Origin: Coriobacteriia bacterium
GTDB taxonomy: Bacteria > Actinomycetota > Coriobacteriia > Anaerosomatales > Anaerosomataceae
Length of the DNA: 64,000 nt
NCBI GenBank assembly: GCA_016938135.1
Contig: JAFGVD010000010.1
Location: 1-64,000, forward strand
Direction: 5' to 3'
Shown: one piece after another, positions 57,900 through 63,933 of the stretch
Layout of the letters: every line of letters begins with the position of its first letter
Numbering within the stretch: the stretch's first letter is position 1
Translations under genes and position numbers: made by a program
Notes under the pieces: model-generated
Told to the model about the DNA's origin: nothing
Seen by the model: only the letters and a program-made list of their open reading frames with translations
Database searches by the model: none

Positions 57900-58043
57900 C
57901 TAGGCTGCGCTCGGGCAAAGAACCTTGCGGCCCTTGCTGCGGCGGGCGGCGATAACCGCACGGCCTGCTTTGGTCGACATGCGCTTGCGAAAGCCGTGCG
58001 TCTTAGCACGCTTCCGGTTGTTCGGCTGGTATGTCCTCTTCAT
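57900..58043 (-). CDS. rpmH: 50S ribosomal protein L34
   Basis: A 47-residue L34 opening [22 protein letters not shown], followed by [20 protein letters not shown]. The last residues (CPSAA) replace the common short ending. GGAGGAATGC precedes the ATG at 58043. It is first in the leftward unit and is driven by a consensus promoter 50 bases upstream. Confidence 0.97.
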
Positions 58044-58092
58044 TGCATTCCTCCACTCCACGGCATCCATCGTCCGGACGCCAAGACAAGTG

Positions 58093-58122
58093 ATTATAGA
58101 GGTGGCATCTTACGTGTGTCAA
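58093..58122 (-). promoter_or_regulatory. rpmH promoter (consensus sigma70 type)
   Basis: Reading leftward, TTGACA (58122-58117) and TATAAT (58098-58093) match the consensus perfectly with an 18-base spacer. The predicted start is near 58086, about 43 bases before the rpmH ATG. Confidence 0.88.
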
Positions 58123-58207: not shown

Positions 58208-58720
58208 TGTGGATAATGTGGAAAACCCAGGACTCACCCTTGTATCCCCTGTGGATAACTCATTCCCACGCGTTGTTGCCCAGCGCAGGGTTTGTTAGAA
58301 TCGGCGCGACCTCCCGGGGCCTCATTAGCCCTAGAGTTACCTTGAAAAAGCCCTGTTTGGCGCACACAAGACTCCCTGTTAGCAGATATCGTATTGAGTG
58401 ACAACCGTTTTATCCACAGCTTTCCCACCCGGGATCCCTTGGGATGAACACCTGTCCACAGCTCAGTGATGTTTCTTAGGGGTGGGAAGGGGACTGGAAG
58501 CCTCTTTTTCCTCCAAAATCGCTCTCACCAGTGCGTTTATCGATAACATGGAGTTCGGAACTGAGATTCTTTCCACAGTTGTGGAAAGCTTTGTGGATAA
58601 ACAAAGAAAGACCAGCGTAAGCGCTTCCAGCCAGCGGGGCTTGAGTACGACAAGAGGGTTGGAGATACGCCCCTCACCTGCGGCTTATCTGTTTGGCAAC
58701 TGACCAACTGTTGTTGATAA
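58208..58720. other. oriC, left DnaA-box cluster
   Basis: The 716-base gap between rpmH and the GHKL gene has no reading frame of note. It holds four perfect DnaA boxes: TGTGGATAA at 58208-58216, 58250-58258 and 58592-58600, and TTATCCACA at 58410-58418. TGTTGATAA at 58712-58720 has one mismatch. A 20-bp perfect palindrome of box-like sequence (CTTTCCACA-GT-TGTGGAAAG) lies at 58569-58588. The A+T content rises sharply here. Confidence 0.9.
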
Positions 58721-58759: not shown

Positions 58760-59593
58760 ATGAAGACATTCTTTGACGGTCGGCCGTCTTCATTCACCCC
58801 CACTGATACACATGTTGTGGTTGATGCCTCGGTTCCTCATCTAATGGATAGACCGGAGGGTGGCAACGTCCCTCCAGTTCGAATCGCCGTCTATGACGGC
58901 TTGACCGCACCACCGCGGGTAGAGGACATCTTTGGTGACAACCCACGCGCATTGATTGAATCCTTGTCGTCTCGCGCATATCAGTTGTCGCATGACGCCG
59001 GGGGCAGTCTGCCGTATGTGGTCATTCGTGAGATCGTGGAGAACCTGATACACGCCCACTTTTCTGAGGTGGTCGTCTCGATCCTTAATCAAGGCAACAC
59101 GATCAGGTTTGCTGATCAAGGACCTGGTATAGCCAACAAGGAGAGGGCTCTTGAGCCCGGCTTCTCTACAGCAACTGAAGAGATGAAGACAGTCATAAAG
59201 GGCGTTGGGTCCGGCCTGCCTGTAGCGCGTGAGTGTCTGATTTTTTCTGGAGGAACCGTTGTGATCGAAGATAATCTCGAACGCGGGACTGTGGTCACAC
59301 TTCAGACGGTTCCCAAGCAAGACCCTGTTCATGGCGAAGATATATCGACGCCCACGCCGGATCTTGAGCTTCCTTCATTATCCACTCGGCAAAAACGAGT
59401 TCTCTCTTTAACTATGGAGTGTGGATCTGTAGGACCCACAGTCGTATCGAAAGAGCTTGGCGTGGGATTGTCGACGGCTTATAGAGACCTGGCTTCTCTA
59501 GAGGCTGAAGGCCTTATTTGCTCAGATGAAACTGGGAAGCGGACCCTGACCACAGTTGGAGTCCACTGCCTGGATGCGCTCTTCAATGGATAG
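58760..59593 (+). CDS. GHKL-ATPase/winged-helix protein inside oriC
   Basis: A 277-residue protein between the oriC box cluster and dnaA. Residues about 70-185 form a GHKL ATPase fold: EIVENLIHA (N box, 91-99), [12 protein letters not shown] (G1, 107-118), KGVGSGLPV (G2, 137-145) and RGTVVTLQT. No HisKA or sensor domain is attached, so it resembles an anti-sigma-factor-type ATPase. Residues about 207-270 are a winged helix ([26 protein letters not shown]). The ATG at 58760 follows GGAGGGGGAG. dnaA starts 13 bases downstream, so they likely share a transcript. It may regulate dnaA or origin firing; this is inference. Confidence 0.8.
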
Positions 59594-61032: not shown

Positions 61033-61144
61033 TGTGGATAAAGAGAGGGGCCTGTGGAGATGTTGATAACCAGGAGCGTTTCATCGACAAGTAATCAACA
61101 ATAGACACACCCGTATCAACCAGGGAAAAAACGACTTATCCACA
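61033..61144. other. oriC, right DnaA-box cluster
   Basis: In the 214-base dnaA-dnaN gap, DnaA boxes are TGTGGATAA (61033-61041), TTATCCACA (61136-61144) and the one-mismatch TGTTGATAA (61061-61069). Together with the left cluster this gives a bipartite origin around the GHKL and dnaA genes. Confidence 0.88.
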
Positions 61145-61171
61145 TCATCCCCACCACTATTACTACTACTA
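61136..61171. other. Basal unwinding system: DnaA box, GC spacer, DnaA-trios
   Basis: TTATCCACA (61136-61144) is followed by a C-rich spacer and then, on the minus strand read 3' to 5', the trios GAT-AAT-GAT-GAT-GAT at 61157-61171. This is the 3'-[GA]AT-5' repeat that DnaA follows when it melts DNA in Bacillus. Order, polarity and spacing match. Melting should start here, just before dnaN. Confidence 0.85.
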
Positions 61172-61200
61172 CTGATAGATATTGAAAGAAAGGAACAGTA

Positions 61201-62301: not shown

Positions 62302-63412
62302 CAAGCATGTGCTGATATCCAAACTCGAGTTCAGAGGAGTAAGAAACTACGATCATTTCTTGGTTGAACCTGACTCGCATCTCACGATTCTGGTTGGGCC
62401 TAATGCGGTAGGTAAGACGAACGTGATCGAGGCAATACAACTACTGACAACCAACCGTTCATTTAGAAACCCACAATGGGTGGACGTCGTGAAATGGGAC
62501 GCCAGCGAAGCAAACCTTAGGATGACGCTGGATGATGATGGGGTGCTAACCATCTTTGAAATGGTGATCACCCTGGAGAATAAGCGGTCCTATAAGTTCA
62601 ATGGTTTAACGAAGCGTGGATTCTCTAATATCCCAAAGGTCCTCCCCAGCGTTGTCTTCACACCTGATGATCTGCTGCTAGCCAAAGGACCAGCAGAAAA
62701 CAGACGAAAAGCTATCGACGATCTAGGTGAAAGACTCTCGAAGACTTACGGGAGTATCAAGCGCGACTACACCCGAACCATAAGACAACGCAACGCTGCG
62801 CTGAAAGAGAACCAAACACACAAGGCGACACTACAGGCCTTGGATGAACAACTGATCTCAATAGGATCATCGCTTTGTCTACATCGCCGGCGTCTCCTTC
62901 AGAGGATGTCACCGATCACCACGTCGATCTATGGGACTCTAGCTACCGGTGAAGTACTAGATATCCAATACGAATCACGAGCGTTAGGTGATATTCCTTT
63001 TACCGAGAAGCTTAGAATCGAAGACATTCAGATAGCGATGTTTTCAACCCTGCAAATCCGGAGAAATGAAGAAGCTGCTCGTAAAACCACACTGGTAGGG
63101 CCACACAGGGACGATGTCATCTTCAAAATAAACGGAAGAGACGCACGCTCTTTTGCCTCGCAAGGACAACAACGGACCATCGCATTAGCCTGGAAATGTG
63201 CAGAGGTCCGCATCATCCAAGAGATCGCACGTCAAACACCGGTTCTACTCTTAGATGATGTTATGTCGGAATTGGACTCAACCCGCAGGGAAGCTTTAAC
63301 CACGCTGGTGAAAGATGGGGTTCAGACGATAGTGACGACCACTAACACCGGCTACTTCGCACCAGACCTGCTTGCCCAGGCAAAGATCATTGAGATACCC
63401 GGGAGAGGCTGA
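62294..63412 (+). CDS. recF: DNA replication and repair protein RecF
   Basis: A 372-residue SMC-like ATPase that helps load RecA at gaps. Walker A is VGPNAVGKTNVIEAIQLL, the signature is SFASQGQQRTIALAWK, and Walker B is VLLLDDVMSELDSTRR. The start is uncertain: TTG 62294 (overlapping dnaN by 8 bases) or GTG 62309, neither with a strong ribosome-binding site. The dciA gene follows by a 1-base overlap. Confidence 0.95.
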   Translation: MVSKHVLISKLEFRGVRNYDHFLVEPDSHLTILVGPNAVGKTNVIEAIQLLTTNRSFRNPQWVDVVKWDASEANLRMTLDDDGVLTIFEMVITLENKRSYKFNGLTKRGFSNIPKVLPSVVFTPDDLLLAKGPAENRRKAIDDLGERLSKTYGSIKRDYTRTIRQRNAALKENQTHKATLQALDEQLISIGSSLCLHRRRLLQRMSPITTSIYGTLATGEVLDIQYESRALGDIPFTEKLRIEDIQIAMFSTLQIRRNEEAARKTTLVGPHRDDVIFKINGRDARSFASQGQQRTIALAWKCAEVRIIQEIARQTPVLLLDDVMSELDSTRREALTTLVKDGVQTIVTTTNTGYFAPDLLAQAKIIEIPGRG

Positions 63413-63933
63413 TGGTAAGGCGTCGAAAGATCGACCAGGTCAGCGAAATAGGACGAGATATGCTGACCCGAATCGACCCACACGGCAAACGATATGAATC
63501 AAAAGCCGTTCAGGTCTGGCCGGAGGTCGCAGGAGAAGAGATTTTAAAACACACAAAAGGCTTCGCTATGCGCGAAGGCGAACTCATCGTCTTCGTTGAT
63601 TCTCCCGCCTGGGCCAATGAACTGACATTGATGGCGGAGCACCTCAAGAAGGATATCAACACAAGAATCGGTGAGGGTTCAGTAAGGGCTATCAGGTTCA
63701 ATGTGTCGAAACAGGTGAAAGAGGCACGCCGCTGGGAGGTCATGAAAGAAGAGCACGAGGCGTTCTACGCAAAGGACCAGACTGAACCCGTGGCGCTTTC
63801 GCCTAGTGAGTTGGAACAAGCACAGTACATAGCGGGAGCGATCGAAGACCCGGAACTTCGAGAGCAAGCGCTTAAGGTCATGGTTAAGGACCTGGAGTGG
63901 AAAAAGGGTGTACGCCACACCAAAAAGGCGTAG
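63412..63933 (+). CDS. dciA: DciA-like helicase loader (DUF721)
   Basis: A 173-residue protein. The DUF721 core covers about residues 15-100: ESKAVQVWPEVAGEEILKHTKGFAMREGELIVFVDSPAWANELTLM by parts, including the WPEVAG and SPAWANEL motifs. DciA is the ancestral DnaB loader in bacteria without DnaC or DnaI. A charged helical C-terminal extension of about 70 residues ends KKGVRHTKKA. The ATG overlaps the recF stop (TGATG). gyrB would be expected next, beyond the window. Confidence 0.88.
   Translation: MVRRRKIDQVSEIGRDMLTRIDPHGKRYESKAVQVWPEVAGEEILKHTKGFAMREGELIVFVDSPAWANELTLMAEHLKKDINTRIGEGSVRAIRFNVSKQVKEARRWEVMKEEHEAFYAKDQTEPVALSPSELEQAQYIAGAIEDPELREQALKVMVKDLEWKKGVRHTKKA

Follow-up and report, generated by a model that had tools for sequence, protein, structure and literature searches.

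Introduction

The described proteins closest to the one studied here are GHKL ATPases. GHKL proteins with ATP hydrolysis or serine phosphorylation activity (MutL, PDK, SpoIIAB) typically have an ExxxN pattern in the N box. The glutamate of this pattern is the general base in MutL, PDK/BCKDK and SpoIIAB; histidine kinases generally do not have the pattern. Proteins of the SpoIIAB/RsbW class are small and soluble, carry the ExxxN glutamate and, to our knowledge, do not include a winged helix. A further type is represented by DIP2311 (PDB 3lmm), which we take to be an AlbA_2 and HATPase_c_4 protein with a winged helix; we know of no link between proteins of this type and dnaA.

Outside a few model species, little is understood of how dnaA expression and initiation are controlled. 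Autoregulation by DnaA is known from Streptomyces lividans and from slow-growing mycobacteria (PMC8203912), and a DnaA box followed by DnaA-trios is a described type of origin unwinding element (PMC8287927). That metabolism can act on replication control at the rpmH-dnaA region is known from PrpR of M. tuberculosis, a transcription factor that binds there and couples metabolism to dnaA; it is encoded elsewhere, binds the region weakly and is not a GHKL ATPase (PMC3982210). In this work, we describe an unrelated protein, GHKL-wH, in which a GHKL ATPase is joined to a winged helix and whose gene directly precedes dnaA in a 64-kb stretch of Coriobacteriia DNA (the window, by which the whole stretch is meant). 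No description of this protein was found in the open-access papers searched, and the author of an earlier note on this DNA knew of no replication regulator with such a layout.

Results

Domain organization and relation to other GHKL proteins

The open reading frame encodes a product of 277 amino acids (Table 1), and its start codon at 58760 is backed by a GGAGGGGG ribosome-binding site and by an MKxFF N-terminus kept in relatives. In an AlphaFold2 model made from nine input sequences (mean pLDDT 74), a poorly conserved N-terminal tail (residues 1-38) is followed by an arm (about 39-58), the ATPase domain (62-183), a linker (184-206) and a winged helix (207-277). The ATPase domain matches Pfam HATPase_c with an E-value of 2.4e-11 (44.5 bits, cutoff 26.4), as do all 56 aligned family members at E <= 0.01, and its fold and profile matches in the PDB include the domains of histidine kinases, PDK/BCKDK and MutL. 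GHKL-wH belongs to the GHKL ATPase superfamily, and all three of its N, D and G boxes are intact. For the C-terminus, single-sequence Pfam scores stay under the cutoffs; family members match TrmB, HTH_IclR, HTH_5 (ArsR) and MarR, and the family profile finds the winged helices of IclR, AdcR/ZitR and PhiH1-like proteins in the PDB. As modelled, this part has the winged-helix fold, with block pLDDT values of 73-92, and it agrees with the family profile matches. PADLOC matches of the protein cover mainly the generic winged helix.

Table 1. Features of the GHKL-wH locus (positions in the window; residues are those of GHKL-wH).
Feature	Position	Strand	Basis or remark
rpmH, divergent upstream neighbour	57904..58047	-	approximate ends
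rpmH-to-GHKL-wH DnaA-box cluster	58208..58720		4 exact, 2 one-mismatch
DnaA-box triad TTTCCACA-N2-TGTGGAAA-N4-TGTGGATAA upstream of GHKL-wH	58570..58600	+	
GHKL ATPase and winged-helix protein gene (GHKL-wH)	58760..59593	+	ORF, translation, family conservation
Beta-hairpin arm (RIAVYD...PRV), residues 39-58	58874..58933	+	model strands 40-44 and 53-57; R41, A43, Y45, P52 conserved
GHKL ATPase domain, residues 62-183	58943..59308	+	HATPase_c match; PDB fold and profile matches
N box EIVENLIHA, residues 91-99	59030..59056	+	E91, N95, H98 identical 115/115
D box DQGPG, residues 119-123	59114..59128	+	D119, G121, G123 identical 115/115
G box GVGSGL, residues 148-153	59201..59218	+	G148, G152 115/115; G150 114/115
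Variable linker, residues 184-206	59309..59377	+	pairwise identity 0.10; pLDDT <50 at 188-201
Winged helix, residues 207-277, wing G259-K260-R261	59378..59590	+	model, family matches, conservation
dnaA	59607..60986	+	13 nt 3' of GHKL-wH
Predicted origin unwinding element (DnaA box and DnaA-trios) in dnaA-dnaN	61136..61173	+	sequence; definition from PMC8287927

The best Foldseek and profile matches are the CA domains of histidine kinases (HATPase_c), which have the GHKL fold and the G2 box in common with GHKL-wH. Unlike histidine kinases, however, GHKL-wH has no DHp domain, H box, membrane or sensor part, and it possesses the ExxxN glutamate and a winged helix. HisKA/DHp was absent among the Pfam matches listed for the protein and its family members, and a single helix, not a helical hairpin, precedes the ATPase domain in the model; on these grounds an identity as histidine kinase was rejected. 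Both parts of the earlier description, intact ATP-binding motifs with no kinase dimerisation domain and a C-terminal winged helix, were thus borne out.

The N box (P..VIRE.VEN) is similar to that of MutL, and the match to the MutL model is confined to this region (18.9 bits, cutoff 180). The family profile also matches the N-terminal regions of PDK/BCKDK and MutL; in contrast to these proteins, GHKL-wH carries a winged helix, and neither a MutL transducer nor a PDK domain was seen. The DIP2311-type structure 3lmm was the second-ranked Foldseek match, over about 270 columns and with a poor fit (rmsd about 13), which points to a broadly similar domain order at most. AlbA_2 and HATPase_c_4 are absent from the Pfam matches of GHKL-wH and from the 25 listed of the 31 families matched by its family members.

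Distribution and conservation of the family

In the sampled genomes of the phylum, to which the profile search was confined, a search with the single protein gave matches in 119 of 296 genomes at 1e-10, and a profile of 56 sequences matched 161 of 396 at 1e-12. The E-values fall into two widely separated groups: about 157 proteins at about 2e-42 or better, which we count as orthologs, and a few kinase-like matches near 1e-13. GHKL-wH proteins form a real family. The set comprises 158 loci, with a few species counted twice via two collections, and covers 25 family-level and 81 genus-level groups, Coriobacteriia included; every genome of the same class that was listed has the gene, and none is among the negatives listed. 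Among the named relatives are Actinobacteria HGW-Actinobacteria-1 and -6, Coriobacteriia OKU8, a Coriobacteriaceae MAG and Candidatus Oleimmundimicrobium americanum, and an insensitive contig scan with exact short peptides returned Actinobacteria records only.

Residues E91, N95, H98, D119, G121, G123, G148, G152 and G165 are invariant in all 115 distinct sequences, G150 and G134 show one change each, and the G-K-R of the wing is largely retained across the family. The loss of N-box or G-box residues in relatives, which the earlier note would have held against its reading, is therefore not seen. The ATPase core has a mean pairwise identity of 0.52 and the winged helix one of 0.41, far above the 0.10 of the linker, indicating that both domains are under selection.

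The presence of the gene requires 6 changes on a quick DnaA tree, compared with 26 when shuffled. Because the branches of this tree are long and no root was inferred for it, gains and losses are indistinguishable on it. Pairwise distances of GHKL-wH and DnaA correlate at 0.61, a value reached in none of 999 permutations. Together, the clustering on the DnaA tree and this correlation suggest that inheritance has been mainly vertical. No homolog was found in phages and viral contigs, and the plasmids searched gave a histidine kinase only; thus, an origin as a mobile element or defence gene was rejected.

The gene is absent upstream of dnaA, with no remnant, in one species (G015, locus L151, family f18) whose genome is 99% complete and whose congener (G044, L117) retains it; such a clean loss implies that GHKL-wH is not indispensable everywhere. 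The most diverged copies occur in this same family f18. A second apparent absence (G020) concerns an assembly that also has no dnaA. Some copies are irregular: in L124 (G293) the winged-helix end is out of the family register, possibly through a frameshift or an assembly error, and L053, L160, L163 and L167 (G291, G337, G364, G395) have one stop codon each inside the profile match. Some Coriobacteriia (L098, L100, L102, L105 and L107-L109) have frames of about 415-520 amino acids that contain a long insertion within the linker or close to it; these frames are separated from dnaA by 200-470 nt.

Position beside dnaA

Of the 158 loci, 150 show dnaA, and in every one of these it directly follows GHKL-wH on the same strand; in the remaining 8 the contig stops short of dnaA, in several because the genome is opened at or near that gene. 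Homologs scattered at unrelated loci, the other finding that the earlier note had named as adverse, did not appear. The gap between the two genes is mostly below 30 nt. In many Coriobacteriia it amounts to 200-470 nt, which leaves space for a separate dnaA promoter.

The neighbours are almost equally constant, with rpmH in place at 140 of the 142 loci where it was seen and dnaN at 107 of 109. As the rpmH-dnaA-dnaN block is rigid anyway, a fixed position by itself says little about a functional link, and general rigidity of the origin region could explain part of the positional conservation. In both species seen of genus g11 (L095, L155), GHKL-wH and dnaA are inverted as a unit between rpmH and dnaN; the inversion breaks the adjacency to rpmH and dnaN and changes the orientation to the other neighbours, whereas the GHKL-wH-dnaA pair stays intact.

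Two further observations concern the surroundings. On the minus strand before rpmH (58093-58122) is a promoter that fits the sigma-70 consensus perfectly (TTGACA, 18 nt, TATAAT), and a small protein encoded after recF (63412-63933, plus strand) resembles the DUF721/DciA family.

DnaA boxes and the origin region

The window contains six exact TTATCCACA DnaA boxes, all in two intergenic regions: four between rpmH and GHKL-wH (58208, 58250, 58410 and 58592) and two between dnaA and dnaN (61033 and 61136). The position 13 bases ahead of dnaA, with DnaA boxes on both flanks, is therefore as the earlier note had given it. Of 107 dnaA-dnaN regions across the family, 32 contain a DnaA box followed by DnaA-trios; none of 133 rpmH-GHKL-wH regions and no shuffled sequence does. 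From its sequence surroundings, GHKL-wH is placed inside a bipartite origin region and away from the predicted unwinding site. The claim that the gene is encoded inside the origin thus holds for the bipartite region as a whole, but the predicted unwinding element itself falls in dnaA-dnaN.

In the triad upstream of GHKL-wH, two DnaA boxes stand head to head with 2-3 nt between them, and another box follows downstream. Of 152 loci, 78 have a head-to-head pair within 500 nt upstream of the gene; among the 28 genomes of the phylum that do not have the gene, 16 carry such a pair upstream of dnaA. None was found between GHKL-wH and dnaA in the 19 loci with a gap above 60 nt. Since the pair precedes GHKL-wH, or dnaA when the gene is absent, a shared DnaA-responsive operon promoter would fit, and GHKL-wH probably opens a dnaA operon that DnaA itself regulates. 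Co-expression with dnaA, as claimed earlier, is accordingly probable, and the two genes would be co-transcribed.

K-mer, palindrome and anchored alignment analyses upstream of GHKL-wH gave DnaA-box motifs only and no protein-specific operator. The palindrome TCCACA-N2/3-TGTGGA was considered as such an operator and rejected because it is also found upstream of dnaA in genomes without the gene; we take it instead to be a head-to-head pair of DnaA boxes. No Rfam match to a structured RNA was obtained at the locus.

Discussion

We propose, with a probability of about 0.5, that GHKL-wH is a nucleotide-gated DNA-binding regulator of dnaA expression, and of its operon, or of initiation. The proposal starts from the domain architecture, the invariant ATPase residues, the conserved wing and the placement between the DnaA-box triad and dnaA, all of which are directly supported. 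GHKL-wH would be a soluble protein and the first product of the dnaA operon. Its GHKL domain would bind ATP, and hydrolysis is plausible given that E91, the general-base glutamate, does not vary in the family. Whether ATP or ADP is bound may then alter the geometry or the oligomeric state of the winged helix, perhaps via the N-terminal arm and dimerisation, and the winged helix would contact DNA, most simply its own operator or the oriC region. Once bound, the protein could tune transcription of its own operon and hence the supply of DnaA, or change how accessible the upstream DnaA-box cluster is. In either way it might tie initiation to energy state or stress, as the earlier note suggested. 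A larger claim, that GHKL-wH stands for a class of initiation regulators in which a GHKL ATPase sits on origin DNA via its winged helix and its nucleotide state licenses or blocks DnaA at oriC across much of Actinomycetota, is put forward only tentatively.

Rather than controlling transcription, GHKL-wH might act directly on the initiator, as an ATPase or Ser/Thr-type kinase that touches DnaA or the orisome and uses the winged helix as an origin tether. The invariance of E91, the presence of PDK/BCKDK and MutL among the better profile matches and the co-inheritance with dnaA are in line with this idea, which we nevertheless regard as unlikely; the correlation of GHKL-wH and DnaA distances is what vertical inheritance alone would produce.

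About as likely as direct action on DnaA is a housekeeping role, in which GHKL-wH would regulate the transcription of other genes and stand beside dnaA simply because the origin region is rigid. Neighbours about as fixed as the gene itself, its clean loss in one species and the absence of a specific operator at the locus would all be expected under this explanation. It accounts less well for a gene that is never elsewhere in 150 informative loci, that moved with dnaA in the g11 inversion and that lies within the presumed dnaA operon, 3' of the DnaA-box triad.

The earlier note had compared GHKL-wH to anti-sigma kinases. A partner-switching anti-sigma factor kinase of the SpoIIAB/RsbW kind would, like GHKL-wH, have a short GHKL domain without a dimerisation domain, and the SpoIIAB model does give a weak match. 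This match (TIGR01925) reaches 18.3 bits against a cutoff of 135, however, and HATPase_c_2 is matched by only 3 of 56 members, with a best E-value of 0.0012. Moreover, 10 of the 20 tested genomes bearing GHKL-wH have neither STAS nor STAS_2 (Pfam), and the genome of the window (G000) has a separate frame with STAS and HATPase_c_2 (contig C47:5170-5901); GHKL-wH also differs from the class by its added winged helix. The analogy did not hold up, and an anti-sigma role, which we consider very improbable, was rejected on the failed SpoIIAB model and the missing STAS domains. The single frame on C47 is a more typical RsbW-like part than GHKL-wH.

Similarly remote is the view that the placement is a gene-dosage or timing device, keeping an ordinary regulator in step with origin firing to act on cell-cycle genes and not on dnaA, which the origin-proximal location and the upstream DnaA boxes would suit but for which no target gene was found.

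Across 25 family-level and 81 genus-level groups, the dnaA locus has retained at its front a catalytically conserved ATPase joined to a DNA-binding domain. GHKL-wH is thereby a specific protein with which to ask how replication is tied to nucleotide state in these bacteria, and a promising candidate for a so far unrecognized control of DNA replication through much of one large phylum.
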